Source: Candidatus Gastranaerophilales bacterium (GTDB taxonomy: Bacteria > Cyanobacteriota > Vampirovibrionia > Gastranaerophilales > Gastranaerophilaceae). Taken from it: a stretch of DNA of 64,000 nt. Position 1 is the stretch's first letter; every line of letters begins with the position of its first letter. The notes below the pieces were generated by a model. The model saw only the letters and a program-made list of their open reading frames with translations, was not told the origin of the DNA and ran no database searches. The stretch is taken from the NCBI GenBank assembly GCA_944323045.1, contig CALUQX010000012.1, positions 1 through 64,000 of the forward strand, in the 5' to 3' direction. Both the position numbers and the translations under genes were made by a program. Shown one piece after another: positions 24,304 through 61,500 of the stretch.

Positions 24304-24333
24304 AATCCTGATTTTTTGTAAATCAGGATTTTT
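24304..24333. terminator. Hairpin terminator between the MGLAASQ protein and secA
   Basis: An 11-base stem (24304-24314 with 24320-24330) and 5-base loop lie directly after the stop of the leftward gene. The T run is cleaner on the plus strand. Confidence 0.55.
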
Positions 24334-25951
24334 ATGAATTGAACATTGTAAATATTTTTTCGACGTTTTTGCTTATCATACTCTTGACTGTATCATATTC
24401 AGTTGTTAGTGCAGAAATTTCAAGGTCTAAGTTTTTCATTTCTATATCAAGAGTTTCTTCGCGGTAGTTCAGCTTACTTTTTGCGGCTGTATATTCTGCT
24501 TCTGCTTTTGTAATAGCATCTTCATCGGTTACTTCGCCGATGCAACCGTTTTTCGTGTAGTGATCCTGATAGTAGTAATTATTGCTGTTCAGTGATGATA
24601 CAAAGTACCTGCCGTTTTTCAAACTATTTTGCAGATAGTCATTATCTGTTACATTTGCATCGGTAGTCCAGCCGTATGTACAGATATTGTTATACAATAC
24701 GTTGATATAGTCTGCTATCATCAATTCTTTTTCATCGTATACAGAATCAGGGTTATTCAATACATATGTATAGTTGAAATCGTTGGTTACGAAATTAGAA
24801 TCAGCAGTTGTCGGTGTAATATAATAACCGCTGTCATAACCGTCTAATGCAATTGCATAGTTTGTCAGGAACATTTCTGCCATATTTGACAGGCTGACTG
24901 TCATTTTGGTACGTTGATTGTAAACACCGCCGTTTGTATTGTTTGCTTCATTTAATACAGAGTTAGTGTCAGTAAATGCTTTTCCGTAAGACTTAGTATT
25001 ATCAGCTAATTGTTGAATAGTCTGGTTCAGGGCAAATACAAAGGCTTGAGTATCCTGAGTTTGTGTATCATCAACAAATAATGTTTCAAATAATTTTGCG
25101 ATGCTTGACAGGGCTTTCATAGCCTGGTTAGTTCCGGCAATGCCGTCAGGCTGTGCATCCATTGCTTTAGACAAGTCTTTCAACTGGTTTTGAAAATCGG
25201 TTTCTGATATATCAAATTTGATAGTAACATTAGATGTCAACAAATCAACTATTGTAAAGTCTTCACTAGTTTTTGCATTATTAATGTAAACATCACCCAT
25301 ACTACCGTCATTTGTAAATGTCATTGCAGTTGCCAGGTCTTGATATTTTGTATATTGCGGAGAACTTGGATCAAGTTGAGCCATAAATTCCGGATCTAAT
25401 ATGTTTTCCATGTAATTTACAAGTGTACCTATTGTCATTGTGTTTGCAATACTCTTATCAATAGGATTGCCGCCAAATCCGGCTTTTTCACTCCATTCAA
25501 CTGTTCCGTTACCTGTTGCACCGGTGATAATATCGGCAACATTACCTGAAATAAATCCGACATCAGCCAGAGCCTGTGTAAAGGCGTTTCTGCCTGCAAG
25601 GCTGCCTGTTCCTGATATTTCACTAATACCTGCTGCTTTTGCTGCTTTTGCCAACTGTTCACTCAATACAATCTGACCTGTTCTATTTGTTACAAGATAT
25701 GGTGAATATCCGTTGAATTCGGATGGTTCCATCATTATATCGTAACTTAAATCATAGATTGTATTATCTTCTGTTTCACCGTCCCAAACTAATTTTGTAG
25801 CATCCAGAGAGTTTTGATACTGGTCTGTTGCATTTTGAAGTTCACGGGTAATCGAAAGCTTTTCTTGTGCAATTTCCATGGAACGAAATTCACAATCTGC
25901 TTTTCTGGATGTTATGGCTAAAAATCTTGCTTGTGAAGCTGCCAATCCCAT
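24332..25951 (-). CDS. Large lineage-specific protein with MGLAASQ N terminus, 539 aa
   Basis: Not assigned to a named family. It starts MGLAASQARFLAITSRKAD, followed by an amphipathic helical region to about residue 50, a long polar, Asn/Thr-rich central region, and a C-terminal coiled coil (about 465-539, with NLDLEISALTTEYDTVKSMI). No signal peptide or membrane segment is visible. Helical ends around a variable middle is also the plan of flagellin, hook-associated and some type III-secreted proteins, so a filament or secreted structural role is possible but unproven. I recall similar N termini in other Gastranaerophilales proteins. Ribosome site AAAGGA precedes the ATG. It lies downstream of the phage genes in the same direction; whether it belongs to them is unclear. 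Confidence 0.7.
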   Translation of the reverse strand: MGLAASQARFLAITSRKADCEFRSMEIAQEKLSITRELQNATDQYQNSLDATKLVWDGETEDNTIYDLSYDIMMEPSEFNGYSPYLVTNRTGQIVLSEQLAKAAKAAGISEISGTGSLAGRNAFTQALADVGFISGNVADIITGATGNGTVEWSEKAGFGGNPIDKSIANTMTIGTLVNYMENILDPEFMAQLDPSSPQYTKYQDLATAMTFTNDGSMGDVYINNAKTSEDFTIVDLLTSNVTIKFDISETDFQNQLKDLSKAMDAQPDGIAGTNQAMKALSSIAKLFETLFVDDTQTQDTQAFVFALNQTIQQLADNTKSYGKAFTDTNSVLNEANNTNGGVYNQRTKMTVSLSNMAEMFLTNYAIALDGYDSGYYITPTTADSNFVTNDFNYTYVLNNPDSVYDEKELMIADYINVLYNNICTYGWTTDANVTDNDYLQNSLKNGRYFVSSLNSNNYYYQDHYTKNGCIGEVTDEDAITKAEAEYTAAKSKLNYREETLDIEMKNLDLEISALTTEYDTVKSMISKNVEKIFTMFNS

Positions 25952-26074: not shown

Positions 26075-27364
26075 TTACAATGTAATAGGCCAGTAAAAAT
26101 CCACCAGATATGATGCCGCATCCATCGGATGAGAAAGAAATTTTAATTCTTTTGATAGTTTAATCTGTTGAAATGTAGGGATGTCAATCTGAGAAGATCC
26201 TTCCTTATATCTTAAATTGTAGATATTATAAAGAAGTTTTTCACATTTGGGGTCTACAAACAAACATATTTCGCCGTCTGCTGAGCGGACTTTTGCATTG
26301 AATGCCATAATTCTGTTTTTTATCGGCGGATTGTAAGGTTTTATTTTTATATCAACATCATAGCCGTGTTGTAAAAGCATTTTTTTAATTATTACATAAT
26401 TTGTATACTCACTTGTGCAGCTCCTATTATCGCCTGAGGCATCACCGTTAACTATAATTCTGCCTTTATGGTTCGGGTATCTGCGGCAAAATTCTTCACA
26501 AGTTTTGGAAGTCGTTGTGTTCTCTAAAACAATTTCATCAAAGTAGAAAACTTTATCTTCAGTTTTGTGAGCAAGAACCCATGCCATCGGGTCGACATTG
26601 AAGTCACAGCTTATATGCAAATCCATTTCCGGCTGGTATGAAATTTCTTTTATATTTTCATCAGTAAAATCCTTTACAACAAGCCCTTTGTGATATTCAC
26701 CTGTTTGTGCCAGTACAAAAATATTATAATACTGTTCATCATATAGTTTTTTCAACTCTTCACAATAACCTTCAGGCAGATAGATGTTTTGTGTTGTCGG
26801 GGCTGTGATAAGTCTGTAGTTTGGCGGAGGATTAACCATAAATGTCTTATAAATCCAACCGCGGCACATTTCAGGGTTTGTGTGTCCGAAAATCCTGTAT
26901 TTAAAGTTTTTCCAACTCTTTTTGATTTTCTGGCGCATACGGCTTAAGAGTATAAGAAAAGTGTCGTATGGAATATCTGACATCTCTTCAATCTCAACAA
27001 ACCCTAAATTCAATGATTTTAACTTATTAGGTTCATCAAAATGTTTGAAAGAAATTTCTGAGCCGTTTCGAAACGTGAGTTTCTGTAAAGATGATGACCA
27101 TTCGTAATCAATATCTTCAACAAATCCCATATTATCTAAATGTTCGAAATATGTTTGTAAAGTTGTATCGCGGACAAGAGTATACGTTTGTGCACCGACA
27201 AGCCCTCTGATACCGGGGAATTTCTGGCTCAAAAGAATACCTAAAAGTGCACCGGAAAAAGTTTTGCCTGACCCGTAACCCCCTTGATATACTGCTACAT
27301 CCAGATTGTAATCGTGTGGTATTTCTAAAAATTCACGCTGTGCTTTTAATAATTTGTATTCCAT
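26075..27364 (-). CDS. Phage terminase large subunit
   Basis: The 429-residue protein is a DNA-packaging motor: Walker A QGGYGSGKT (27-35), Walker B LGFVEIEEMSDI (about 124-135), and a C-terminal RNase H-fold nuclease with HISCDFNVDPMAW (first Asp) and GDASGD (second Asp). It fits the PBSX/Terminase_6 type. Both catalytic halves look intact. It is the last gene of the head cluster in transcription order and is separated from the portal gene by a terminator-like hairpin. Confidence 0.92.
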   Translation of the reverse strand: MEYKLLKAQREFLEIPHDYNLDVAVYQGGYGSGKTFSGALLGILLSQKFPGIRGLVGAQTYTLVRDTTLQTYFEHLDNMGFVEDIDYEWSSSLQKLTFRNGSEISFKHFDEPNKLKSLNLGFVEIEEMSDIPYDTFLILLSRMRQKIKKSWKNFKYRIFGHTNPEMCRGWIYKTFMVNPPPNYRLITAPTTQNIYLPEGYCEELKKLYDEQYYNIFVLAQTGEYHKGLVVKDFTDENIKEISYQPEMDLHISCDFNVDPMAWVLAHKTEDKVFYFDEIVLENTTTSKTCEEFCRRYPNHKGRIIVNGDASGDNRSCTSEYTNYVIIKKMLLQHGYDVDIKIKPYNPPIKNRIMAFNAKVRSADGEICLFVDPKCEKLLYNIYNLRYKEGSSQIDIPTFQQIKLSKELKFLSHPMDAASYLVDFYWPITL

Positions 27365-27394
27365 GATTTTTTATGCAATCCTTTTTTAAAAAAA

Positions 27395-27457
27395 GTGCCG
27401 CCGAATAGACAAGAAAAATAAGGAGTAAATGTATATATAAAGAAAGGACGGCGGCAC
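27395..27457 (-). terminator. Terminator-like hairpin between portal and large terminase genes
   Basis: Perfect 9-base arms (27395-27403 and 27449-27457; GTGCCGCCG and complement) enclose a 45-base AT-rich loop. In minus-strand RNA the second arm runs straight into seven U residues. This would stop or attenuate transcription before the terminase gene, or end a small processed RNA. Confidence 0.5.
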
Positions 27458-27487
27458 AGAGAATGTCCAACAATGCAATGAGAAGAG

Positions 27488-29191
27488 CTAATTGTTGTTT
27501 TGGTTCACAAGTTTTTCTGAATTGTTCCGGTTATTTTTATCATCATTCTTTTCACTGAGGAAATTGTTTGCATTTTCAATCCCGTATTGTTCAAGAGCAA
27601 ATTTAAAACATTCTATCCAGTTTACCCTGTCAGCAACATCGGGAAAGTCTGCAAGTGATTTTATGACTTCAAACAATTCCTTAATTCTGTTTTTACGTTC
27701 AAAAGAGGCTTTTCTGTCCCCATAGCGGTAAACATAATTGGCATTTCTGATTTGGTCATTAATTTCTATAAAATCAGTTTTACCATGTTCATTAATGCTG
27801 ATAAGTTCTTTACCAAGTTTAAAATTGGCAATTATATCTGCTGTTTTTTCAACCATAGGAACAATAATTTTCCGGCTGATAGAATCAATAAGCATGTTCA
27901 ATCTGGCTTCCTGCCCTGTCGCAGAATAGTTTAATTCTGTTGCAGTTCTGTTTACCTGCTGAAGATTTCCTGCCATATTTTTGAAAATACCTGTCGCACT
28001 TTCTATAGTGCTTTTAAAGTAATTTAGAAAGTCCCAGCCGACCATAGCCTTGTCAAATTCCAACGGTGTCGGCGGCTGCGGCATTAACGCGGCATCGTAT
28101 TCAATAATTTTACCCGGACTTACATCCTGCTGCCCTTTAAAACAGCCTTTCGGCGCGAGATACGGCGGATTCATCATCAATGCCAGCGCATCCAGTTGTT
28201 TGTTTAATATGGTAGAAGAAATATTGTTCAAAACAAGTGCGACTCTCAAAGGTGAAATTCCGCGTCCGGTGTGCGGATCTTCTATAACATTGGCATATAT
28301 AAACGGATTTATTACAAAAGGATTTGTCTCAAACCTGATAATTTCGCGTCTTCCGGCAACTACAACCAGACAATTTTTTAATATTTGTCCGTCGTCGAGT
28401 TCGATATCGCCCCAGTATTCTAAAATTTCAAGTTTGTTGTCTTCTACCGCACGGTTATCTTCCGTGCGTCTTTTCTTTGCCACCACTCCTTTCAGTATTT
28501 CTTTTTTAAATTCTGTTAATAAGTTGTTTGATTTGTCTGAGGTTATATCGTCCATACTGCGGTAAGTCCGGTATATTTTTGCACAGCTATCCCAGTTGTC
28601 TCTGTTGTATTTGTCGAATACAAAATCTTCGGGATTTATGTGTTTTACTTTTGCATTATCGTAGACGACTTTTTCTTCCACTACAAAGCCTGAGTCACTG
28701 CCTGTTTCTAAAATTTCTTCTAAAGACATGGCGCGGCGAATCTGTTTGATTCTTGTTTCCCAGCCGATGAAGAGTGTACACTCACCTGTTTCTACAATTC
28801 CGTCAATGACTTTATCAATTTCGTTTTCAATATTCATTTGTTCAAAAGTATTTACAAGCATTGCCTTCTGACTGTTTGCAAAAGCCTGTGTCTGCGGATT
28901 TGTGCCGCTTACATCGAACATTGCATCAGGATGTGTGTACAAATTCTGGCTCAAGTGTGATTTTAAAGTCTGTGCCAGTTCATAGATATCAGGCAGAGAC
29001 ATTTTTGTCTCCCATGCGTTGTAATGCGGCATGTTCAAGTCATATATCGCATTTTTTACGATTTTGATATCATGCAGTTGAGAATTTCTGCGTCTTTCAA
29101 ACTCATCATATTTTGAACAGATAGTCTGAACCAGCCGTACCTGTTCGCCTTCATTTAATTTTTTTGTAAGGTCTTCTTGTATTATTTCCAT
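27488..29191 (-). CDS. Phage portal protein
   Basis: A 567-residue protein with portal features: a long, mostly alpha-beta N-terminal part, LEILEYWGDIELDDG, NPFIYANVIEDPHTGRGISPLRVALVLNNISS, and a helical C-terminal stretch (TELNYSATGQEARLNMLID, then ISRKIIVPMVEKTAD) as in podovirus-type portals. The portal is the dodecameric ring through which DNA enters the head. Its place between the terminase subunits supports the call. The C terminus is Asn/Lys-rich and disordered. Ribosome site AGAGGA is present. Confidence 0.82.
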   Translation of the reverse strand: MEIIQEDLTKKLNEGEQVRLVQTICSKYDEFERRRNSQLHDIKIVKNAIYDLNMPHYNAWETKMSLPDIYELAQTLKSHLSQNLYTHPDAMFDVSGTNPQTQAFANSQKAMLVNTFEQMNIENEIDKVIDGIVETGECTLFIGWETRIKQIRRAMSLEEILETGSDSGFVVEEKVVYDNAKVKHINPEDFVFDKYNRDNWDSCAKIYRTYRSMDDITSDKSNNLLTEFKKEILKGVVAKKRRTEDNRAVEDNKLEILEYWGDIELDDGQILKNCLVVVAGRREIIRFETNPFVINPFIYANVIEDPHTGRGISPLRVALVLNNISSTILNKQLDALALMMNPPYLAPKGCFKGQQDVSPGKIIEYDAALMPQPPTPLEFDKAMVGWDFLNYFKSTIESATGIFKNMAGNLQQVNRTATELNYSATGQEARLNMLIDSISRKIIVPMVEKTADIIANFKLGKELISINEHGKTDFIEINDQIRNANYVYRYGDRKASFERKNRIKELFEVIKSLADFPDVADRVNWIECFKFALEQYGIENANNFLSEKNDDKNNRNNSEKLVNQNNN

Positions 29192-29206
29192 AAATATTCC
29201 TCTGTT

Positions 29207-29575
29207 TTATTCATAAAATTCCACGTATTCAAATTTGATATAGGCATCTTTTGTCACAAAAGTACTTATTTCACCGTTTTGCAGTTTGTCATGAATACTA
29301 TTTTGTGTGCCGGTCAGGGCTTCTGCCTGAACACCGTTGATATAAGTTTCACTTTTGTTAATCCGATTGAACACCTTAAATACTGATTGGCGTGAAAATA
29401 TCAAATTTTTAGGAGCCTTTGTAATATCTGTAATGTGTTTTTTCTCTTTCGGGCGTTTTGCCTGTTCTAGCTCTGTTACGAACTCCCGTTCAATCTTCTT
29501 TTTAATTAGTTCGTCCAGAGAAGTATTGCTCAAGAGCATTTCTTCAATATCGTTGTTATTATCTTTATTTTTCAT
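29207..29575 (-). CDS. Phage-cluster protein of unknown function, 122 aa
   Basis: I do not recognise a family. The first 55 residues are highly charged and helical (DELIKKKIEREFVTELEQAKRPKEKK), and the rest resembles a small globular domain (FSRQSVFKVFNRINKSETYINGVQAEALTG, FEYVEFYE). Its place between the small terminase and portal genes, with ribosome site AAGGAG, suggests a head-assembly or packaging role. Confidence 0.65.
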   Translation of the reverse strand: MKNKDNNNDIEEMLLSNTSLDELIKKKIEREFVTELEQAKRPKEKKHITDITKAPKNLIFSRQSVFKVFNRINKSETYINGVQAEALTGTQNSIHDKLQNGEISTFVTKDAYIKFEYVEFYE

Positions 29576-29606
29576 AAAAATCTCCTTGTTTTTTTAAATA
29601 AAAATT

Positions 29607-30038
29607 TTATATTTTGTCCTGATCTAAATTAGAAATAGTAATTATTTTCGCCGGTTTGTAATTTTCATCATCCTGATTGTTCAAACCAAGATATTTACAA
29701 AGGTTTTCTAAAGCTTTTAAGCCGGCGGATGTATCGCGGAGTTTCTTTTTGCCGGTAGGAGTACCTTCCTTATCCAGAATATCTTCTTCTGTTAGCGAAA
29801 ACTCTGCTATTTGTAGTAGTTTTTGTACAACATATCCTTTATTTACACATAGAGAAGATACCTCATTTTTAATTTGAAGTTTTATTTCATTTATTACAGA
29901 ATTGTTAGAAAGTAATCTTTCTGCGACTTCTTTTAAATTTTTGGATTTATATCCGGCTAACCCGGCGGAAAGCTCACCATTCAAAGATTTTATGTACTCC
30001 GATACAAATTTTTTTTGCTGATTAGTTAATTTTTTCAT
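29607..30038 (-). CDS. Phage terminase small subunit
   Basis: The 143-residue protein begins LTNQQKKFVSEYIKSLNGELSAGLAGYKSKNLKEVAERLLSN-like, the helix-turn-helix pattern of Terminase_2 small subunits, which recognise the packaging site. The second half is helical with EEDILDKEGTPTGKKKLRD and LKALENLCKYLGL, also typical. No clear ribosome site precedes the ATG. Directly upstream lies a candidate small RNA on the opposite strand. Confidence 0.85.
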   Translation of the reverse strand: MKKLTNQQKKFVSEYIKSLNGELSAGLAGYKSKNLKEVAERLLSNNSVINEIKLQIKNEVSSLCVNKGYVVQKLLQIAEFSLTEEDILDKEGTPTGKKKLRDTSAGLKALENLCKYLGLNNQDDENYKPAKIITISNLDQDKI

Positions 30039-30068
30039 CTTTTAATCGTTTACATTTCTCAATATAAT

Positions 30069-30168
30069 TTGTGTTTTTTCAAAAAAAAATGTATAATATA
30101 AATGCTATTTATATTTCGGCTAGTGTAAATCTTAACAGGGGGCAATGAAATTACTTCCTGTTTTTTTT
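30069..30168 (+). ncRNA. Candidate small RNA antisense to the phage transcript
   Basis: On the plus strand TTGTGT (30069-30074), a 17-base spacer and consensus TATAAT (30092-30097) are followed by an intrinsic terminator: arms 30135-30142 and 30154-30161 with two G-U pairs, an 11-base loop and eight T residues to 30168. The predicted transcript, about 30104-30168, is some 65 bases. No plus-strand gene lies here. The predicted RNA is complementary to the leader between the adaptor-like and small terminase genes. An 8-codon reading frame from 30103 has no ribosome site. Confidence 0.45.
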
Positions 30169-30187
30169 ATGGAAACAGCCTGATATG

Positions 30188-30826
30188 CTATTTTCTAAAG
30201 AGTTTCAGCGCCGGAGAATAGTTGGCATCCACTGTAATTTCTGATCGCATGGCTGCGATTGCAGAATTGTACATGCTTTGCCAGAAATTGTATTTTATAT
30301 ATTGCGGATCTCCTTTTATGCGCATGCTTGTTCCGTATACAAGAATCGGTTCTATATACTGCTGTGGAATTATAGAGATATCAGTGGCTTCTTCCAATTT
30401 GCTTTTTTCTTTATTATCAGAAGATAACGCCCAATTACGTGTATAGTATATGATTTTTACGGTCTGTTCTTTTTCAAATTCAGGAAACAGCAGTTTGTCA
30501 TTAAATATACTAAACACTTTCGCCTTTTCTTTTTTCAGTAAAAGTCTTTTAAAGTCTTCACAGAATTTATACTCTGCATTTTCTATGTATACAGCTATAA
30601 TTTTGCCGTTAATTGTATTTGTAATTTCAGAACACTGAGCAGGCAGGGTAAGAGATTCTTCTTTGAGTAAAAAATTCCAGTTTTCAGAACTGCAAACCTC
30701 CTGTGCAATAATATTTATGTAATTTTTTATTCTTTGATGTTCAGGTTTTACCAGTTCCGAAAAATCTGATACCTGTTTAAAACTCAATTCTGATAAACAT
30801 TTGTTAATTATTTCTAAATAATTCAT
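30188..30826 (-). CDS. Phage head-tail adaptor-like protein (tail tubular A/gp11-like)
   Basis: The 212-residue protein resembles podoviral adaptor/tail tubular A proteins in layout: an N-terminal helical bundle (YLEIINKCLSELSF..., IINIIAQEV), an ENWNFL segment, an Ile/Val-rich middle with NDKLLFPEFEKEQTVKIIYYTR, and IPQQYIEPILVYGTSMRI before a final helix. The assignment rests on this pattern and on position after the coat and scaffold-like genes, so it is tentative. I chose the ATG at 30826, with AAGGAG eight bases upstream, rather than 30889. Confidence 0.55.
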   Translation of the reverse strand: MNYLEIINKCLSELSFKQVSDFSELVKPEHQRIKNYINIIAQEVCSSENWNFLLKEESLTLPAQCSEITNTINGKIIAVYIENAEYKFCEDFKRLLLKKEKAKVFSIFNDKLLFPEFEKEQTVKIIYYTRNWALSSDNKEKSKLEEATDISIIPQQYIEPILVYGTSMRIKGDPQYIKYNFWQSMYNSAIAAMRSEITVDANYSPALKLFRK

Positions 30827-30893
30827 TATAAGTACTCCTTGTTTGATAAACTGACAGGGAGCCAAAATGCCCCTTGTCAGTTGTATCATGTTA

Positions 30894-31508
30894 TTAATTA
30901 ATCATGTTGTGGCGTAACTGATACATTATTGCCTCTTCATTCTGTAAAAATTCTTTAGTGCTCATTTTGCCAATTTCTTCACGCGTAAATCTTTTCTTCT
31001 GATCGCTGTCATAAGCACTATTCTGGGCATTAGCAGTAAGACGGCTTTTGTCATTAGAATTTTTGCTTGTCAATTTCTGTTCATGCTCATATTGCTGCAT
31101 TTTCTGGTTGATTGCATTTTCAGTGATTGAATCAAGAATTTGAGACAATTTGTCATAATCGCCCTGATTTAGTGAAGAATTTGTGCCTTTTAAGTAGTTA
31201 AAAACTTCACTATATTTGCTGCCGGTGTTATTAGATTCAGCAGGAGGTTGAGTTTGAGCAGGTTGAGCCGCATTATTTTCTGACAGCCCCAAAGAATGTT
31301 TGAGGTATTCCAGGGCAATATTCTGTATTTGTTCTGCAGGTAACATACCGCTTTTCATCAGGGAATTTAAATTATTTAAATTTCCCATAAAGCCTGTATC
31401 ATTTGCCGGAACATTTTGTTCTTCCGGTTCTTCCTGTTTATTCTTGGTTGTATATGTTTCAACCAGATTTTGTAATATTTTTGCTAATTGATTAGTTGTG
31501 TCTGTCAT
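30894..31508 (-). CDS. Phage scaffold-like protein, 204 aa
   Basis: A highly polar protein without a globular core: Gln/Asn/Pro-rich linkers, a helical centre (YDKLSQILDSITENAINQKMQQYEHEQ) and a basic helical C terminus (RFTREEIGKMSTKEFLQNEEAIMYQL). Phage scaffolds commonly end in such a coat-binding helical segment, and the gene follows directly after the coat gene. No protease motif is visible. Strong ribosome site AAAGGAG, spaced seven bases. Confidence 0.6.
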   Translation of the reverse strand: MTDTTNQLAKILQNLVETYTTKNKQEEPEEQNVPANDTGFMGNLNNLNSLMKSGMLPAEQIQNIALEYLKHSLGLSENNAAQPAQTQPPAESNNTGSKYSEVFNYLKGTNSSLNQGDYDKLSQILDSITENAINQKMQQYEHEQKLTSKNSNDKSRLTANAQNSAYDSDQKKRFTREEIGKMSTKEFLQNEEAIMYQLRHNMIN

Positions 31509-31595
31509 AATTTCTCCTTTATAATTTATTTTTTATTATTTGCTTTGTCCGAGGGAAAGAAGCGGGTGAAACACCCGCTTCGATGAACGATTCAT

Positions 31596-32492
31596 TTATG
31601 AGACAGAGCTTTTAACGATTAATTTTGCAAGTGCTTTTGGTTGCACTGTTTTAGCGCCGTATAAATAAAGTCCTCTGACTAAATCAGAAAAACTGTCTTT
31701 ATCTCTCAGGCGTTCAATTCTGGCAAGTTGTGAGGCAAATGTAATAGCGTCATTTGTGCCAGCAAGAATATAATATTTACCTGCAGTATCTACTAAATTT
31801 GTGCTGACAAGAACATCCATACCTGCAATTCTTCCTATAGCACCTTCTCTGAGAGTTTCATCAGCCACCTTATGTGCGTTAATGAACTCTGTACTTTGCA
31901 GCAAATATGACTCAATTGTCGGGTTAATAACAACCCATGGTTTTTGACCGTTTGTCAGAGCGTCAGAATTTTTCAAGCACAATGCAAGTTTTACAAATTG
32001 TTCATATATTGTAGTTTTGCTCAGAGTAATTGGTGATTCATCAGTTCCGACAATATTGTTTGAATCTACATTTGCATGCATAGACAAAAGATATGAGTCC
32101 TGCACTTCTTCAATTGCTTTTTGAGCATTTGCAAGGTGTGCAACCATAATATCTGTGTTTGCTTGCACCTGAGCAATGTCATTAATCTTGAAGGCAAAGA
32201 ATTTTTTCTGATCAATTACAAGTTCCTGAGACTCAGGCTCAAGTTCATCATATGTGATGCTTGATGTTCCCAGTGTAGATACAGTAACTTTTCCTGGAGT
32301 GATAATTTTTACGGTATCACCTTGATTTGCAATTTCGCCTTCGTAATTTCTGTTAACACATTGCAGCATTACGCAGTTTTTTTCCAGCATTGCATTAAGT
32401 TTCTGGCTCCACACTTGAGGAATAAAAGGATCATAATTGTTGCCTTTTTCTGTTGTTGTTGCCGGTGATGTTGATTGATTTTCTTCTGTCAT
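31596..32492 (-). CDS. Phage major capsid protein
   Basis: The 298-residue protein has the pattern of HK97-fold coat proteins of the P22-like group: FIPQVWSQKLNAMLEKNCVMLQCVNRNYEGEI-type N-terminal segment, GDTVKIITPG, a helical spine (IDQKKFFAFKINDIAQVQANTDI), PWVVINPTIESYLL, and a C-terminal domain with GRIAGMDVLVSTNL and TFASQLARIERLRD. I chose the ATG at 32492 because AAAGGG lies eight bases before it. The gene starts the structural part of the cluster. No frameshift or internal stop is seen. Confidence 0.82.
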   Translation of the reverse strand: MTEENQSTSPATTTEKGNNYDPFIPQVWSQKLNAMLEKNCVMLQCVNRNYEGEIANQGDTVKIITPGKVTVSTLGTSSITYDELEPESQELVIDQKKFFAFKINDIAQVQANTDIMVAHLANAQKAIEEVQDSYLLSMHANVDSNNIVGTDESPITLSKTTIYEQFVKLALCLKNSDALTNGQKPWVVINPTIESYLLQSTEFINAHKVADETLREGAIGRIAGMDVLVSTNLVDTAGKYYILAGTNDAITFASQLARIERLRDKDSFSDLVRGLYLYGAKTVQPKALAKLIVKSSVS

Positions 32493-32583
32493 TTTGTTTT
32501 TCCCTTTCATTTATTTGAGTATCATCACTAACCGGAATAACAAATAGGAATGCCGGGTTGTTTCCTGTTGTTAATCCGATTTT

Positions 32584-33081
32584 TTAATTTTTATTTAACT
32601 GATTAAAGTACCACTTTATTTTTGAACGAATAAATGCACCCACATCTGCCTGCGCAACCCACGGATAGGGCGGAAGATAGATTATATCTATTTTTCCTGC
32701 ACTTGATGTACGAGGATGTTTGAGTCCAAATTCGTAATGTGTCATAACTGTATTCGGGGTAATTTCTATATCATATTTGTCAGCTAAATCTGCACAGAAT
32801 TTCATTGCGGCTTCAAATTGTTCGGGGCAAATCGGATATTTACCTGTATTGTTCTTGTTTTGAAATCCTGCCATAGCGCAAATTGCTACTCCTATAGAAC
32901 CGGTATTTCCGCCGCCTGTATGCGCTGCGTATTGACCGGGTTTACATATTTCGTTGTTTTCGGGTTTGAATCTGCCGTTGTGAATGCAGCCATCTTTATC
33001 TATCAAAAAATGATAGCATTCCAATTCATGCGCATTCGGATAATATCCGCCGGCGGTCCAATGAATGATTATTCTTTTCAT
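32584..33081 (-). CDS. N-acetylmuramoyl-L-alanine amidase (phage endolysin type)
   Basis: The 165-residue protein is an Amidase_2/T7 lysozyme-like enzyme that cuts the amide between MurNAc and L-Ala. Zinc ligands are likely H7 (IIIHWTAGG), H122 (GLKHPRTSS) and D132 (GKIDII), where many relatives have Cys; Y23/H24 also fits (CYHFLID). Family pattern GSIGVAICAMAGF is present. There is no signal peptide, so a holin or other exit route is required; none is visible. I chose the ATG at 33081 (AAAGGAAAC upstream); a longer frame to 33225 overlaps the LuxR-type gene. Confidence 0.85.
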   Translation of the reverse strand: MKRIIIHWTAGGYYPNAHELECYHFLIDKDGCIHNGRFKPENNEICKPGQYAAHTGGGNTGSIGVAICAMAGFQNKNNTGKYPICPEQFEAAMKFCADLADKYDIEITPNTVMTHYEFGLKHPRTSSAGKIDIIYLPPYPWVAQADVGAFIRSKIKWYFNQLNKN

Positions 33082-33124
33082 ACTGTTTCCTTTTTTCGTT
33101 GTTATAAATTTAGTTTTTCTACTG

Positions 33125-33334
33125 TTAGCTAAAGCTTGCCAGCCATTCCGGACAAAGGAGTATATATGCAAGGACTGCATGTCCTCTGTTTCTTGCATGG
33201 AGTTTAAGAACAATTCTATCGACATGTGTCCTTACTGTTCCGTATTTAATATGTAATTTTTTACATATTTCTTTATCCGAATAGCCTAATGCGACCAAAG
33301 CCAACACTTCTAGCTCCTTTGGTGATAGTTCCAT
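33125..33334 (-). CDS. LuxR/GerE-type HTH regulator, 69 aa
   Basis: The protein is one LuxR-type DNA-binding domain: LSPKELEVLALVALGYSDKEICKKL, then IKYGTVRTHVDRIVLKLHARNR. There is no receiver or ligand-binding domain. The ribosome site AAGGA lies upstream. It is the first gene after a terminator and lies 44 bases before the amidase, so it heads the head-gene operon and probably controls it. Stand-alone LuxR domains controlling phage late genes are unusual; host signals could be involved. Confidence 0.85.
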   Translation of the reverse strand: MELSPKELEVLALVALGYSDKEICKKLHIKYGTVRTHVDRIVLKLHARNRGHAVLAYILLCPEWLASFS

Positions 33335-33436
33335 CCTTAATTCCTTCGTTGTTTAATGGAGTTGTTTATATTTTCTCGGCTTACTCTATAAGCTTACATA
33401 AAACATTCACAAAAATTCTTAATAATATTTCCTCTG

Positions 33437-33464
33437 AAAAAAATAAGGGAGGAATTATCCTCCC
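33437..33464 (-). terminator. Intrinsic terminator after the zinc-ribbon gene
   Basis: GGGAGG (33447-33452), loop AATTAT and CCTCCC (33459-33464); in minus-strand RNA this is followed by UUAUUUUUUU. It separates the zinc-ribbon gene from the LuxR/head operon. Confidence 0.75.
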
Positions 33465-33507
33465 GAAGGGTAAGATAATTTAATTGGATACTCCAGAGTG
33501 ATATTCA

Positions 33508-33903
33508 TTAAGTTAAGTCAAACTTATTTTGAAAGGATGGTTGTGTATCAATGTTTTCTTTGAGCCCAAGCTTTAAATTGCTTAAATTGGAATAACATCT
33601 TTTTATCACTCCATATTCATTGTAATTAAGATAAAATTTTCCTGAATTATCATATTTTAACGGTTTAATTTCATAAAGAATCTCCTTTTTTAATTTTTTA
33701 AATAATTTTTCAGCCTTACTATTAGTTCTACGAATAGTTGAGAGTTTTCCGTCCGACTTAATTCTGGTAAGCTGGACAACTTTGTGCCCGCATACCGGAC
33801 ATCTGGTCAAAACATCCACTTCACTGATTAAAATATCTTTTGGCGGCACAAGTTTAAATGTTCTGGTTTTACGCAGAGCACCGCAGCAATGTATATATCC
33901 CAT
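33508..33903 (-). CDS. Small zinc-ribbon protein, phage-cluster edge, 131 aa
   Basis: Function unknown. The N-terminal half has the Cys pairs HCC (near residue 6) and CPVCG (near 34-38), which could form a small zinc site. The rest is basic and rich in Lys, Asn and Tyr, as in small phage or accessory proteins. I chose the ATG at 33903, with GGGAG seven bases before it; the frame extends to 33981 without a better site. It has its own terminator, so it is expressed apart from the head genes. Confidence 0.6.
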   Translation of the reverse strand: MGYIHCCGALRKTRTFKLVPPKDILISEVDVLTRCPVCGHKVVQLTRIKSDGKLSTIRRTNSKAEKLFKKLKKEILYEIKPLKYDNSGKFYLNYNEYGVIKRCYSNLSNLKLGLKENIDTQPSFQNKFDLT

Positions 33904-53218: not shown

Positions 53219-54604
53219 TTAAAAAATCTTATAAGGGTTAAGTATATTATTCGGGTCAAAAACTTTTTTGATTGTCCGCATATAATTCAAAGCCTCTGCA
53301 TTAACAACTTTTGAAATATGTTCACGTTTTAAAGACCCGATACCGTGTTCGCCTGACAGAATCCCGTCCAGCCGTGCTGTTAATTCATAAATCTCATTTT
53401 TAGCCAGCTTAAATCTTCTGTATTCATCTTTATCATTATAATCAATAGGGATTTGCGGGTGAACACTGCCGTCACCGACATGTCCGACCATACATACATC
53501 CAAATTATATTTCCGGCAAATTTCGCGGATGCCCAAAACAAGCGCCTCAAGATTTTTACGCGGAACAATAACATCGTCGGTTGTAACATTTGGTTTTAAC
53601 TTTGCGCACGCTCCCATAGAGGAACGTCTTGCCGTCCATATTTTGTTATATTCCTCTTCATTATGTGAATACTGAATTTTTGCAGCACCACTGTTTTCCA
53701 GAATATTAACAATCATTTTTTGCTGTAATTCAACAGCGTTTTCAAATCCGTCAACCTCTATAACAAGTGCAGACTCTTTATCGCAGAGCAATCCTGCAGG
53801 ATAAAATCGTTCTACAGTTTGTATTGCGTTTTTGTCCATAAAATCAATTGTTGCAGGGAAAATTTTCTGTTCAATAATTGTATTTACAGCCTCAACAGCC
53901 CCGCGGACAGTATCAAAATAAGCCATTATAACCCGTCTTGTTTCAGGTTTTGGTATTAATTTCATTGTGGCTTCAACCACAATGCCGAGAGTTCCTTCAG
54001 ACCCCACAAAAAGTGTATTCAAATTGTAACCGGTGGCATTTTTAATTGTACTTGCTCCTGTGCGCAACAGTTCACCGTTTGCAGTAACAACCAGCAAATC
54101 AATTACATAATCCTTTGTCGAGCCATATTTAAAAGTTCTTGCCCCGCCGGATGCCTGTGCAATACTGCCGCCTATTGTTGAAACAGCGAGATTTGACGGA
54201 TCCGGCGGATAGTATAGCCCCAATTCTTCCACTCGTTTTTGAAGTTCGCCAACAACAACTCCTGGTTGAACTCTTGCTGTCATATTTTCTGCTGAAATAT
54301 CAAGAATTCTGTTCATCTTTGAAAAATTCAAAACAATACCGCCGTGTTCTGTAGAACATGCACCCACAACATTGGTACCGGCCCCGCGGCAGATTACAGG
54401 TGTTTTATATTTATTTGCCAGTTTCACCACATCCTGAACTTGTTTAATATTTTCAACAAAGACAACCGCATCCGGCAGATTTTTTATGCAGGGCGTATTG
54501 GATGCATCCTGTGCGTATGCATATCGTTCTTCAACTTCGGTCAACACGTTTTTCAAGGGCAAAGTTTTTTTTAGTTCTGTAATTATTTTATTCTTCGTCA
54601 ACAT
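53219..54604 (-). CDS. glcD: FAD-binding oxidase, GlcD/D-lactate dehydrogenase type
   Basis: The 461-residue protein has an N-terminal FAD_binding_4 domain (PVICRGAGTNVVGACSTEHGGIVLNFSKMNRI-type region, STIGGSIAQASGGARTFKYGSTKDYV) and a C-terminal FAD-oxidase domain (about 230-460; CMVGHVGDGSVHPQIP, SGEHGIGSLKREHI, KKVFDPNNILNPYKIF). Such enzymes oxidise glycolate, D-lactate or other 2-hydroxy acids; the substrate is unknown and partner subunits GlcE/GlcF are not adjacent. Its start overlaps the end of the giant coiled-coil gene by 17 bases, with no own ribosome site, so translation is coupled. Confidence 0.88.
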   Translation of the reverse strand: MLTKNKIITELKKTLPLKNVLTEVEERYAYAQDASNTPCIKNLPDAVVFVENIKQVQDVVKLANKYKTPVICRGAGTNVVGACSTEHGGIVLNFSKMNRILDISAENMTARVQPGVVVGELQKRVEELGLYYPPDPSNLAVSTIGGSIAQASGGARTFKYGSTKDYVIDLLVVTANGELLRTGASTIKNATGYNLNTLFVGSEGTLGIVVEATMKLIPKPETRRVIMAYFDTVRGAVEAVNTIIEQKIFPATIDFMDKNAIQTVERFYPAGLLCDKESALVIEVDGFENAVELQQKMIVNILENSGAAKIQYSHNEEEYNKIWTARRSSMGACAKLKPNVTTDDVIVPRKNLEALVLGIREICRKYNLDVCMVGHVGDGSVHPQIPIDYNDKDEYRRFKLAKNEIYELTARLDGILSGEHGIGSLKREHISKVVNAEALNYMRTIKKVFDPNNILNPYKIF

Positions 54605-57600
54605 AAGAAGCCAGTTTTTCTACATTCATATTTAATTTATTGATTAATTTTTCTATTTTGTCAACTTTTTTGTTTAGTTTTGTTTCATCTGTTTCTTCTA
54701 ATGCTCCGAGAACCCGTTCCAATTTCATCTCAAGACGGTCAATACGTTCCTGCTGCTCTTCAAATTTATCTTCCAGAGTTTTAATTAAATCAGCTTTTTC
54801 CGGAACATAATTTTTAAGGTCACTTATAGTATTTTTAACCTGAGATATTTCATCATTTACATTATCAATTTCGTTAACTTTGTCAGTGAGCGAATTCATA
54901 TTAACAGTAGCGTTATCAACCCATTCACCGAGATACATCAAGACTTCTCTGATAACTTTGTTAGAATTTGCAGAGGCAGCCATAGCATTGTTAATTGCTG
55001 AAATCTTTCTTTCAATACGTTTCTGAATTTCAGTATTATCCAGATAATTAACCTTTTCATTCAGGTTATTAACCATACCGCGGAACGCATCAAGCCCTTC
55101 ACTCAAGGATTTGTATGAATTGTCGGAATTCAACAGCAGGGTATTAGTTCTTGTGCTGATGCTTACAATGTCTTCATTAATTTTATCAAAATCTTTTTTG
55201 AATCTTGCAAACTCTTCCTGAGTCAGAGTTGTCTGCAAATCTTTTACTGTATTTTCGATTTTAGAAACATTATCCGCAAGCTGGTTAAGTTCGTCATTAG
55301 GGGCAGCATCTGATATGTCGTTCAGAATCATCCTCAATTTTGCAATATCAGTTTCTACATCCTGAAGTGAATATGAATAACTATCATCGCCTGTATTGCT
55401 TGCAATTTGTCTTAACTGGTGCTGAACTACTTTAATATTATTAGAAATTTCATCAGTTTTTTCTTCGACAAATCCTTTAATTTCTTCAGTTTCTTCGATA
55501 AATGAGATTTGTTCAAAAACACTTGCGATAGCAGCCATTAATGATTCTTTGATATCATTTGCATTGCTGTCAACTTTATTGATATCACCTGCAATAACAT
55601 CTATTTTCTTTTGCAAATCCTGCAGGCAATCATCCATAGCAATTGTTCTGTCGCTTATTTCTGTGTCTTCAAGATATTGTCTCTGCGCAGAAATAAGTGA
55701 TTTAATATTTTTAATTTCACCTTCAACATCAAATCCGTCGAACACATCTTTCTCAGATAAGGCAACGACTTTGTCTTGCAATACCTGCAAAGTATTTTCT
55801 ATCTGGTCGCCTGTTACTGCTAAATCGTCAACTTTACTGTTAACATCCTGAAGGTTACTGATAATATGGTCATTATTAGTTTCCAGTTTAACCACATCAA
55901 TTTTATCTGTTAATTCAACTAGCGTATCGTGAATTCTGTCATCTGCTTCAGCAAAGGTATCAATTTTAGCAGAAACAACATCAACAGATTCAGCTATATC
56001 AGCCAGATTATTTTTCAAATCATCAGCAGATGATTTGACGCTGCTGTCTATTTTAGAAGATATATCAGCAAAGCCAGCTTGAAGATTGTCAGTAATAGAT
56101 TCAGCACGGCTGTCGATTTTTGAGGAAACATTATCTAATGTATCTGAAAAATCAGAAATATCATTTTTAATGTTATCTGTTACAGATGCAACACTGTTAT
56201 CTACACGTGATGCAATATTTTCAACAGAATCTGCGAGTTTCACATCTGCATTATAACAATCTCCGACCTTTTCGTGCAGCGAATCAAGACTTGATACAAT
56301 GTGTTCATTGTTTGTGTTGAATTTGAATACATCTATCTTGTCTGATAAAACTTCCATTGTTTTGACAATAGCACCGTCATTAAACGCAAAATCGTCAAAT
56401 TTCTGTCCGAATTCAGCAAGAGTTTGTTTAACATCTTTGTCATTACTTTCAATTTTTTCGGTTACCTGCCCGAGTGATGTTGCAATATTTTTGGTAAATC
56501 CTGCTACTCTGTCGACTGTTTCATTTACATCATTAATTTTTCCTGCGTTTTCAGCAATGTTATTCAAAACGCCTGTCATCTGATCGGCTACTGCAGAAAT
56601 GTTGTCAGCCTTTTCTGAGATTTCCGTAGATTTTCTCAACAACTGATCGTCAACAATTGAGAAGGTATCCATTTTTACAGACAACCCTTCCATTGCTTCC
56701 GCCAGTTTTGTATCGTAATCATGCGCCGCATCAGCTTTGTCATTCAACATATCAAGTGAAGTTGCAACATGTTCTTTTGTTGTGTCTACTTTCAAAATAT
56801 CAACTTTATCAGATATTTCTTTTATTGCATCGACAATTTTTTCATCGTTAGCAGTAAAGACATCTACTTTTTCTGATAAAGTTTCGACATTGCCATTGAG
56901 TTTTGAAACATCATTTGCAACTTTATCTGTCAGGACATTTACACTTCTTGAGAGAATTTCATTTGATGTAACTGTTTTATCAGAAACTTCATTCACGCTG
57001 TTCATCACAAGTTTGGCAGCAGAAGTGACTTTTTCTGAGACTTCTTTTATGTTTTCAACAATAGCCTGTTTATTTTCAGACATTTTGTCAGTAACAGAAA
57101 GCACGGTATCTTTTAAAACAGTTTTTTGTTCTTCAAAATTATTATTAATATCGGTTATATTATCAAGAATTTCCTGTTTATTTTCTGATGCTTTATCTGC
57201 AAGAACTTCCATACCGCTTATGATTGATTTTGTATTATCATCAAATTTGACGGCAACAGAATCCATAGATTGAGCAACAACTTCACCAACAGAAGATACA
57301 TTTTCCTGCAGTGCCCCGAATGTATTTGCAATACGTTCGTCATTACCGGCTATTGCATCAAGTTTAAGGTTCACATCCTCAAGCACCTGTGCATTTTTAT
57401 CTTCCTGCACAGATAAAATATCTGTTCTTGAAAGAATATCTTCCAGTACCTGTCCTGTTTTTTCACTATTTACAGACAGAGTATCTGTTTTAACCTGAAT
57501 ATCTTCCAAAGCCTGTCCGATTTTTTCACTATTTGCAGACAGAGAATCCGTTTTAGATTGAATTTCATCCAATGTCTGCCCGGTCTTGTCATTTTGAGCA

Positions 57601-60600
57601 GACAAAATATCTGTTCTGGAGAGAACTTCCTCCAATATTTGACCGCTTTTTTCACTTTGTAAAGACAATTCATCTGCTCTGGCAGCAATATTATCTATAG
57701 AAAGGCTTAATGCACTTTCCGGAGAAGAAAAACTGTCAACCTTGTGGGATAAAATATCAAGTTTATCACTAATTTTATCGCCGGCATCGCCAACCATTTC
57801 TATTTTGTCATTTATTGAATCCAGAACTTCTTTTGAGCGTTCATGCTGTTCGCCGGAAGCTTCAACTTTCTGTGCAAGTGAATCAACTGCCTCGACTACG
57901 CGTTCATCATTTGTACCGAATGTTTCAAGTTTGCTTGACAACATGTCAATACTATCAGTAACTCGTTCTGAATCAGCGCCAATATTATCAACTTTTCTAT
58001 TCAACTCATCAACACATTCAAATACTTTTACTGATTCTTCACCTAATGCCTCAACCTTATTTGAAAGTTCGCTGACATTTTCAACAACCTTATCAGAATT
58101 TGTGCCGAGTATTTCAACTTTGTCAGAAAGAGTATTCAATGACTGGCTTATTTCGTCATCAGAAACAGAGAAAGTATCAATCTTGTCGAGCATCACATCC
58201 ATTGTTCTTGTGATTCGTTCATCTGTTTCATTCATCGAATCCATTTTTTCGTTGAGGAACTGCATTCCCTGAGTAAGCTGCTCATTAGTTTCGTTACTGT
58301 CAAGTTTATTAGAAATCAAATCAAGTGACTGTGTAACCTGATCACTAACATTTGCAAAAGAATCCAGTTTATCAGAAATTGCAGCCGCTGACTGAACAAG
58401 TTCATCTGTTTTGCGGTCTATATTATCAGTTTTTTCAGTAATTTCAGAAACAGCATTTGACATTGAATCTGTGCGGATATTCATTGTCTCAACAGTTTCA
58501 TTAACTCCTGACACTTCGTTAGTCAGTTGTTCTGTTGTCTGTCTGAGTCCGCTGAATTTTTCTGCTATATTAACAAGCGAATTTACAATTCCGTCATCAT
58601 TGCTGCCTAACGCATCAACTTTTTCATAAATAGCCCCGAGTGCCTGTGAATTTTTTTCATTTGTTTCTGAAACATTATCAATTTTGCCGCTTAAAGATAT
58701 TAAAACATCTGTTGTCTCAGTATCATTAGCAGACGGCAGATTATCAAGTTTAGTAATAATTTCATCAGCTTTGGCATCTAGCTCCGCAACCCTGGTATGC
58801 AGCTCTTCATCCTGTTCTTTTGAAAGCAGTGCATCAATTTTTTCATGCATTGCATCCATTGACTCTGCAGAAGATTTTGCAACTTCTTTCATTGCAATAA
58901 GAATAATGTTTTTCAGATCTTTTAAACCTGACATTATTTGCATTTTGTTATTGCCGAGAATTTCATTAAATTCATCATTTGAATAGTGAACACCAAGTTC
59001 TTCAACCTTAACGCCCAACTGGTTCAGAATAAGTAAAATTTCTTCTTTTGTATCATTATCATCTTCTTTGGAAGATTGTTTATTTTCCAATTCCGTGAAT
59101 TTTGCGGCAAGTTCAGTTTTCAAACTGTCAACTGTCCACATCAAATCATTCGCACTTACCGGTACACCAATATATCCTTTTAAATCCTCAAGAACTGATT
59201 CTAATTTAACATTCAATGCATTAGTAACATCTACAGCCATATTAGAAAACATATTAGAATAATTTGAAGTCAATTCACTTATTTTTTCATCAATACCTGT
59301 TAAAAGTGATTTCCATTCATTAATAACCTGAGAATTATTTTCCATACTGCCGGCTATTCCGCGGCTGATGTCTTCTACAGCAGATTTGAGCATTTCCAGA
59401 TTATTCTGAGTCTGTGAATTCATAGTTTCGCTGACTTCATTTATCTTAGAAACTGTGTCTGCATAAATCTTTTCCAGACCTTCTGCTAAAGTCTGATTCT
59501 GTCCGAGACTCATCTGTATTTGCGTATTTACATTTGTATAAATTTGTCCGAGTTGTTCTTTTAACTCGGTAAGATTTGAAGAAACATCACTGTCAATAAT
59601 GCTTTGCAAGCTCGTTTTAACAGGTTCTAATGCTTCAACAATATCATCTGTTTTACCGTTCAGTATATCAGCAAATTCATGGTTAAAATCATCACTGCTT
59701 TTCTTAAGTTCAGACAATTTTTCATAGTAATTATTTATATTTTCAGCAAAACTGTTTTGCAATGCAGACAGACGTTCTGAAATTTTATCGTCTAAAACAG
59801 CCCCTTCATTTCTATAAGCATCACTTATATCGTTAATAAATTTTCTGATGCTTTCATTCATTTCTTTTATTTCATTGAAATTAGAAGGAACATCCTGTGA
59901 GAGATAGTTGTTTACAAAATCAAGCTTGGTGCTGACAATATTAATTGCAGAAGTCAAGGTTTCGACATTTTCACCGGCTTTCTGATGAAAATCAAATGAA
60001 ATATCATCAAGTTTTGCAGACATCTCATTCATACTTGTTGTTATTGCATTTTCATTTGTGGCACTTATTGAATTAACATTTTCAGCAATGTCATTCAATT
60101 TGTCCATAAAATCCATTGACTGCAATGATTTTAAAATCTGTTCTATTTTTTCTTTATTTTCTACAAGGTCGTTATTCAAAAAGTTTGAATTATCAACGAT
60201 TTTTTGAATAAAATCAGTTAAATCACCGCGAAATGCATTAAAATCTTCTTCAGTTATTATGGCAGAGAATTTTCTGTCTAAATCGTCAAGTTTTGCATTA
60301 ACTTTTTCATTTTCGCCGACTTCCTGAACAAGATTTTTTACATTGTCAATAACATAAGCCAGCGCGTCAATTTTGTTGTTAACAGTATCAAAATCCAGTG
60401 ACAGTCCTATTTCATTTACATGTGCGTCAAGGTCATTAACCCTGTCAATAACATCTTCTATTTTTTGCTGTGCAACATCAAAGTTTTCACGTGTTAAAAG
60501 CTGTGATACAGCACGCGCAAGTTCATCATTCTTCTGGTCAAAAATCTGCAATGAGGACAGAATTCCATTTGTTGCAAGATAAATATTTTCCAGTTCTTTT

Positions 60601-61367: not shown

Positions 61368-61500
61368 TTCTCTTCTCTTTCCTATAAAGTTAGTATAATC
61401 TCCCTTATATATTATATTAACAGAATAACACAAAATAACGCAAAAATGTTAACGAATTTTACTAAAATTGTAAAGAAAAAGTTTTTATTTTCAATTTTAG

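Follow-up and report, generated by a model that had tools for sequence, protein, structure and literature searches.

A phage head module inherited as a host gene cluster in Gastranaerophilaceae, and dispersed proteins that share the tag of its scaffold

Introduction

Tailocins and extracellular contractile injection systems are domesticated phage machinery used as weapons, and encapsulins are HK97-fold shells with cargo peptides. The former use tails, and the latter are shells without portal and terminase. Here we describe an element that, compared with all of these, keeps a whole phage head together with its packaging motor. It lies in a stretch of 64,000 nucleotides from a Candidatus Gastranaerophilales bacterium (assembly GCA_944323045.1, contig CALUQX010000012.1, positions 1 to 64,000; the whole stretch is called the window below), and the C-terminal end of its scaffolding-like protein, which we call the tag, recurs in proteins encoded elsewhere on the chromosome. 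Judging from these sequences, we think it fairly probable that the element is a vertically inherited viriform with genetics like those of gene transfer agents (GTAs), the capsid of which would be loaded with tagged effectors.

The nearest functional precedent is FpGTA of Faecalibacterium prausnitzii, for which packaging of 8.4-8.9 kb of host DNA has been shown (PMC12946183). Like the present element, FpGTA belongs to a gut anaerobe, is a podovirus-like operon of about 10 kb (terminases, portal, scaffold and coat), occurs genus-wide, and its tails were not seen. It differs in its Firmicutes host and in a second locus with tail, fibre and lysis proteins; furthermore, the part of its description considered here mentions no scaffold-tagged effectors. 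RcGTA, BaGTA and BhGTA are also caudoviricete-derived, endogenised, vertically inherited and conserved by selection (PMC9662315), whereas the element described here has a short-tailed, SU10-like portal and adaptor, occurs in a non-photosynthetic order of Cyanobacteria, and is accompanied by dispersed, tagged candidate effectors. In contrast to FpGTA, with its demonstrated packaging of host DNA, and to the other three agents, it is known from its genes alone.

For the idea that effectors may travel in phage heads, there are precedents in the MuF polymorphic toxins of temperate phages (PMC5576092) and in polyvalent proteins (PMC5512222). PBECR, LPD, lysozyme-like and MuF domains have been proposed as head riders there, and the toxin-immunity logic is similar. 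The difference is that the putative trafficking part is here a copy of the scaffold C-terminus, the capsid is inherited with the host, and the effectors are scattered over the chromosome. In phage P22, assembly requires the C-terminal helix-turn-helix (HTH) of the scaffold (residues 268-303), and cargo fused to the scaffold is taken into shells, a route exploited in P22 nanoreactors (PMC9962691). Those nanoreactors are man-made, whereas the fusions described here are natural, numerous and polymorphic. In the literature on Gastranaerophilales and Melainabacteria we found no report of such a domesticated particle, and none of the papers searched describes a host-inherited capsid combined with a dispersed, scaffold-tagged arsenal.

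Results

Genes of the locus

Most gene families of the locus are unambiguous, and we interpret it as an ancient head module of short-tailed phage origin. The original prediction, made from the sequence of the window, had named nine head, packaging and lysis genes, and all nine are present on the minus strand at 26075-33334 with open frames (Pfam and PHROG matches). The element extends further than had been supposed, to a zinc-ribbon gene at 33508-33903. Its features are as follows (window coordinates; aa, amino acids; TerS and TerL, small and large terminase subunits).

33508..33903, minus strand: zinc-ribbon protein, 131 aa, conserved first gene of the locus (ORF157)
33125..33334, minus strand: stand-alone GerE/LuxR-type DNA-binding regulator, 69 aa (PF00196, 2e-14)
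32584..33081, minus strand: N-acetylmuramoyl-L-alanine amidase (endolysin), 165 aa (PF01510, Amidase_2, 3e-14; phrog_5867 endolysin, 4e-34)
31596..32510, minus strand: major coat protein (phrog_267, 2e-51; PDB 8e16 gp6, 6e-23)
30894..31508, minus strand: scaffolding-like protein, 204 aa, so named from its position between coat and adaptor
30897..31031, minus strand: C-terminal tag of the scaffold (FTREEIGKMSTKEFLQNEEAIMYQL...; profile A7, 1.1e-21)
30188..30826, minus strand: head-to-tail adaptor, 212 aa (PF24175, SU10_adaptor, 4e-6; phrog_6013, 9e-10)
29607..30038, minus strand: TerS (PF03592, Terminase_2, 7e-17)
29207..29575, minus strand: gene X, an orphan of 122 aa (alignment A2, 39 sequences)
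27488..29191, minus strand: portal protein (PF23899, SU10_portal, 3e-21; PDB 9k09 portal, 1.5e-24 by profile)
26075..27364, minus strand: TerL (PF04466, Terminase_3, 8e-18)

The amidase start was placed at 33081, given that relatives have about 165 aa and that the open reading frame (ORF) from 33225 overlaps the HTH regulator gene, and the adaptor start at 30826, giving 212 aa. The Walker A (GxGSGKT) and Walker B (EIEE) motifs of TerL and its nuclease aspartates D254, D308 and D415 do not vary across 69-70 relatives. Neither the scaffold-like gene (204 aa) nor gene X (122 aa) had a useful match in the profile libraries, and PADLOC gave no match.

No integrase, nozzle or holin gene was found in the locus, nor were integration, replication or repressor genes, although att sites were not specifically searched for. 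Sheath, tube and baseplate genes, as expected of a tailocin or contractile injection system, were also missing from the locus, in which profiles detected only head, portal and terminase genes. The portal and terminase are present and conserved, which sets the locus apart from encapsulins. The description of the cluster as tail-less was right about the nozzle and anything distal to it, but the head-to-tail adaptor is present. The window's genome (G000; relatives, loci and genera are labelled G, L and g) is 1.98 Mb long and 97% complete. A profile search of it found no second Terminase_3, and a search with PF03237 was empty because the terminase of the locus belongs to PF04466. No nozzle was found elsewhere in this genome, in a search that did not extend to integrases or other tail genes genome-wide.

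Distribution and gene order

The element is single-copy and collinear in 70 of the 124 sampled genomes of the family Gastranaerophilaceae. In a single-sequence search the portal was found as a single copy, mostly intact, in 90 of 146 genomes of the order (64-90% identity in the core clade), and a portal profile matched 135 of 289 genomes of the class, nearly always once. Gene order was compared in 80 loci from named public genomes and 20 further ones. The order HTH-amidase-nozzle-coat-holin-like-scaffold-adaptor-TerS-X-acetyltransferase-portal-TerL-holin-like was identical in the 40 loci spanning all 13 genes, with the HTH gene as the first gene of the collinear cluster; the remaining loci end at contig edges or miss individual genes, and none is permuted. 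The flanks vary by genus: miaB occurs in a few, many have a ZIP transporter and a radical-SAM gene, and many have secA downstream. The cluster has therefore, by this comparison, occasionally been relocated or had its surroundings shuffled, yet was kept as a unit. A complete prophage at the same site was seen in none of the relatives read.

Sister genera carry the same order as the window plus four genes. Between amidase and coat they have a nozzle (about 510 aa; phrog_3287 family, alignment A1), and the coat is followed by a Holin_LLH-like protein (about 83 aa; phrog_6918 holin, 4e-7; Phage_holin_6_1, 6e-4, which misses the Pfam cut-off). A GNAT acetyltransferase (about 174 aa) precedes the portal, and TerL is followed by a 76-aa protein that appears to have a single membrane segment. 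The order in the window is therefore the fixed, ancestral order of the clade minus these genes, and the private rearrangement that had been proposed for it can be rejected. A nozzle profile that finds 84 of the 146 order genomes found none in any of the six genomes of the window's genus. Both holin-like genes are kept only in the basal member G121, within its cluster, and were not found elsewhere in the genus, and none of the members read has the acetyltransferase in its cluster. Relocation of the nozzle and holin-like genes to another site was considered and rejected, as none was found in the genus apart from the in-cluster pair of G121. Since the genus has lost the nozzle, the acetyltransferase and, mostly, the holin-like pair, the window locus is, from this gene content, the reduced end of a loss series.

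Some loci (L098, L102, L108 and L110) have, near the acetyltransferase gene and on the opposite strand, a small membrane protein of about 150 aa inside the cluster; by eye it resembles L151:16582-17052, beside the rearranged relative L151. An ORF between portal and TerL at L079:2743-3477 looks ADP-ribosyltransferase-like by eye and has no Pfam match.

Vertical descent, selection and nearest phages

A portal tree of 76 genomes was compared with the tree of the host SecA. All nine genera with at least two members are monophyletic in the portal tree, the two trees share 37 of 73 splits, where 200 label shuffles gave no more than 2, and the correlation of patristic distances is r 0.92 in the core clade of 61 genomes. 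Genera without the element (g5 and part of g6) nest inside the positive clade in the SecA tree, and their lack of it is therefore due to loss.

The head genes are under strong purifying selection. By the Nei-Gojobori method, dN/dS between relatives was 0.014-0.067 (about 0.03) for the portal, 0.003-0.06 for TerL and 0.013-0.076 for the coat (0.017 for TerL and 0.057 for the coat against L031/G079), compared with 0.012-0.033 for SecA; in most pairs the scaffold gave about 0.11-0.25. In the window's genus dN/dS is just as low; synonymous sites there are close to saturation, and the values therefore speak against relaxation without being exact rates. Relaxed selection on coat, portal and terminase, which would have spoken for decay, was thus not seen.

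The nearest phages are distant. Among 50,697 phage records, the closest coat was that of Microcystis phage MaAM05 (43%), and for TerL the best matches, in Vibrio phages, reached 27-29%. In IMG/VR, the 40-kb contig L155 (coat 51%) is plausibly a true phage, and L151 (coat 55%) holds a rearranged version of the cluster. IMG/VR matches at 70-80% identity resemble fragments of host chromosome; at least L118, L129, L140 and L144 have host-flank genes beside the cluster (secA, or a paralogue of MGLAASQ, a neighbour of the element in the window), and virus catalogues may hold many such host loci filed as viral.

A diverged second capsid type (portal identity 33-38%), mostly single-copy, occurs in genera g14, g15 and g21 (L190-L203). 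Relative to the core type it does not track the host tree, and it may be a separate capture and possibly a second, independent domestication. Several g14 genomes have portal and nozzle on separate contigs (G143 C6/C4, G124 C5/C8, G084 C26/C21), which looks like dispersal of virion genes. Another relative, L198 (G092:C1:161001-181000), is more phage-like, with its own nozzle, internal virion-like proteins, an amidase and a portal of 31% identity. It adjoins an MGLAASQ paralogue in a genome that also carries the core element, and is probably a true prophage.

The scaffold tag and the proteins that carry it

The tag comprises the C-terminal 30-40 residues of the scaffold, with a motif of roughly [FY]T[RA]E.[IV]G.M....[FY]....E..I..Q. 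This end of the scaffold is conserved in phage relatives such as L155 (iE 2e-10), and in other genera the motif is repeated by accessory genes within the cluster, which mostly lie between portal and TerL. A profile built from it (A7) was run over 146 whole genomes. The tag was present in all 70 family genomes with the core element, and extra, dispersed copies were found in 59 of these 70 but in only 8 of the 54 other family genomes (Fisher p 2e-15, for counts that are not phylogenetically independent), with up to 13 hits per genome. In genus g6, G033 and G054 carry the element and gave 7 and 5 hits, whereas the genomes lacking it gave 0; the profile had no hits in genomes with the second capsid type (g14, g15).

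We read 54 tagged ORFs in 47 fetched loci. Two layouts were seen among them, an effector domain followed by one or two tags, and a tag followed by a C-terminal domain. Their domains include a GH108 muramidase (1e-28), a PBECR1 nuclease (4e-13), an M15 peptidase (7e-8), Lipase_3 (6e-5) and Phage_Mu_F (7e-7), as well as DUF6973 and the polyvalent LPD3. A gene for an LprI lysozyme inhibitor lies beside the GH108 muramidase (L393, 1.5e-9), and another beside a tag remnant in the window's genus (L356, 3e-9). Other same-strand neighbours, namely small multi-membrane proteins after N-tagged toxin-like proteins and secreted proteins before transglycosylase-like ones, look like immunity genes. Conserved tags, varied domains and an adjacent immunity-like gene make up the sequence pattern of a polymorphic toxin system. 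Membership of the MuF toxin family does not fit, as Phage_Mu_F occurs in one small tagged protein (L394) and the toxin-like ones carry scaffold tags instead.

In the window's genome, profile A7 found the scaffold and one further ORF, on contig C22, which adjoins leuS and has two tag copies (C22:16677-16946; 1.4e-13 and 1.2e-11). The encoded protein, of 470 aa, has a glycine-rich hydrophobic N-terminal stretch, LPD3 (2.5e-10, above the Pfam cut-off), the two tags and a C-terminal VYVRAYTRDDGTEVKGYYRS motif. Between G000 and G079, compared at this same site beside leuS, its N-terminal 150 residues are 72% identical, the tags and C-terminus 87% and the middle 36%, a divergence that in sequence is the pattern of a polymorphic toxin. 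Directly downstream, a 104-aa fragment (L350:7070-7384, G000:C22) duplicates the middle of this protein and looks like a displaced effector cassette.

Discussion

Of the six features of GTAs listed by Kogay et al. (2022; PMC9662315), three are found here. The particle proteins have a caudoviricete ancestor, as seen from the Pfam and PHROG matches of coat, portal, adaptor, TerS and TerL; endogenisation is full, as one chromosomal cluster lies flanked by host genes, its locus lacks an integrase, and tagged proteins are dispersed; and inheritance is mostly vertical, with co-diversification of element and host. The other three features concern the particle itself: encapsidation of largely random host DNA, for which the TerL motifs are intact, a head too small for the agent's full genome, and delivery of the enclosed DNA to other cells. 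Domestication, as the original prediction proposed, is supported and considerably strengthened by single copy, fixed order, host co-diversification, purifying selection, the lack of an integrase in the locus and the distance of the nearest phages. The dispersed tagged proteins, invisible from the window alone, point to protein cargo.

How such a viriform might work can be outlined. An ancestor of a large clade of Gastranaerophilaceae would have captured the phage head module, which has since been inherited as a host gene cluster. The module would still produce a capsid fitted with portal, adaptor and packaging motor. The LuxR-type regulator would turn the operon on in some cells. Coat would assemble on scaffold and on tagged proteins, the latter replacing some of the scaffold; the shell would close on the portal with the cargo enclosed, and the terminase would fill it with DNA. 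The amidase would then lyse the producer, to which the genes neighbouring the effectors would give immunity. By position and by analogy with P22, we infer that the tag is the coat-binding end of the scaffold, and the proposed loading step gains support from P22, because scaffold fusions carry cargo there (PMC9962691). In sister genera the nozzle would be the exit, as in a short-tailed phage. For the window's genus, one has to suppose either that particles are released at lysis and lack a nozzle or that a replacement tail has gone unrecognised, and DNA delivery to other cells is doubtful there because the nozzle is missing. Even so, the head genes and a polymorphic tagged effector persist in this genus despite the loss of nozzle and acetyltransferase. 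More tentatively, and with somewhat less confidence than even chances would give, the element may represent a new class of interbacterial delivery, in which a host-inherited capsid is armed through the scaffold-end tag from a chromosome-wide, polymorphic set of effectors and immunity proteins, so that the payload would evolve independently of the particle and would be delivered to, and kill, other bacteria.

Several points weigh against a cargo-loaded capsid. The genomes are mostly metagenome-assembled, the co-occurrence of tag and element is partly phylogenetic, and the case for coat binding is one of position and P22 analogy. Weak tagged ORFs, one or two each, occur without the core capsid in g13 (G076, G100, G101, G108, G129, G139), G097 and G056. 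Some tagged ORFs are fragmentary (L354, L356), the LPD3 protein of the window's genome has no recognised immunity gene beside it, and, as the window's genus has no recognisable nozzle, a delivery route is lacking in just this group. The tagged ORFs of g13, G097 and G056 could belong to another scaffold or be orphan effectors.

Among the rival explanations, a classical GTA deserves serious attention, although we consider it unlikely. The particle would package random host DNA by the headful for kin, and the tagged proteins would be minor ejection or entry factors and not weapons. Packaged wall hydrolases are usual in short-tailed phages, which counts for this explanation, as do the vertical inheritance of the element and the strong selection on TerS, TerL, portal and adaptor, from which DNA packaging has probably been kept. 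FpGTA offers a podovirus-like precedent in Faecalibacterium (PMC12946183). However, the nozzle has been lost in the window's genus, and polymorphic swapping and immunity-like neighbours suit conflict better than housekeeping ejection. It is rather improbable that ordinary phages with related scaffolds left the tagged proteins behind as relics or passengers, and that a GTA-like capsid makes no use of them. In favour of this, scaffolds of L155 and other phage-like relatives end in the tag, and tagged ORFs occur in a few genomes that lack the element; but the window's genome has no other Terminase_3, tags are absent from element-less g6 genomes and where the second capsid type occurs, and in many loci accessory tagged ORFs sit inside the cluster, in the gap between portal and TerL.

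For the window's genus, a protein compartment without delivery, intracellular or released and in that sense encapsulin-like, would agree with the retention of coat, scaffold and tagged protein after loss of nozzle, acetyltransferase and (except in G121) both holin-like genes. We hold this to be very improbable, since a pure compartment would need neither terminase nor portal, both still strongly selected, and the amidase has also been kept. A decaying prophage or a recent large deletion, the latter raised in the original prediction, would explain a window without integrase, nozzle or holin, but is ruled out for practical purposes by intact frames, low dN/dS, synteny, the single-copy distribution across the order with the same cluster in many genera, and the genus-wide, shared loss of nozzle and acetyltransferase. 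To a capsid-borrowing satellite island moving with a helper phage, also suggested before, we assign next to no probability: head genes without replication or integration genes would fit it, yet the locus has its own coat, portal and both terminase subunits and no integrase, the same cluster occurs in many genera, and the congruence of portal and SecA trees contradicts it.

If our preferred reading of a vertically inherited, cargo-loaded viriform is true, non-photosynthetic Cyanobacteria of animal guts possess a domesticated phage particle, a virus head turned into host equipment, with a natural loss series from full head and nozzle to head only. If the tag works as proposed, this would be natural cargo loading by scaffold fusion, of the kind that nanotechnologists have engineered in P22, and the effectors, spread across the genome, would be exchanged as other polymorphic toxins are. 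The tag profile also gives a simple marker for effectors of unknown function in hundreds of gut genomes.

Additional observations

In the zinc-ribbon gene, the CC and CxxC cysteines are invariant (alignment A3, 33 sequences), and the gene also accompanies the distant cluster versions L151, L153 and L186-L190. Its AlphaFold model has a confident core (pLDDT 78) and no match in the PDB. Gene X, which comes directly after the coat gene in the related contigs L152-L155, also gave a model with a confident core (pLDDT 82), for which there was no PDB or viral fold match below E 0.03.

The neighbouring MGLAASQ gene (24332-25951) was considered as part of the element, a view left unsupported by the multi-copy nature of its family: 18 stretches of the window's genome match it. 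The paralogues, on G000 contigs C1, C4, C6, C7, C11, C13, C17 and C21, have conserved N- and C-termini and a variable middle, and the family has no significant Pfam match. Elsewhere in the window, an ORF of 2281 aa occupies 54588-61433 on the minus strand.

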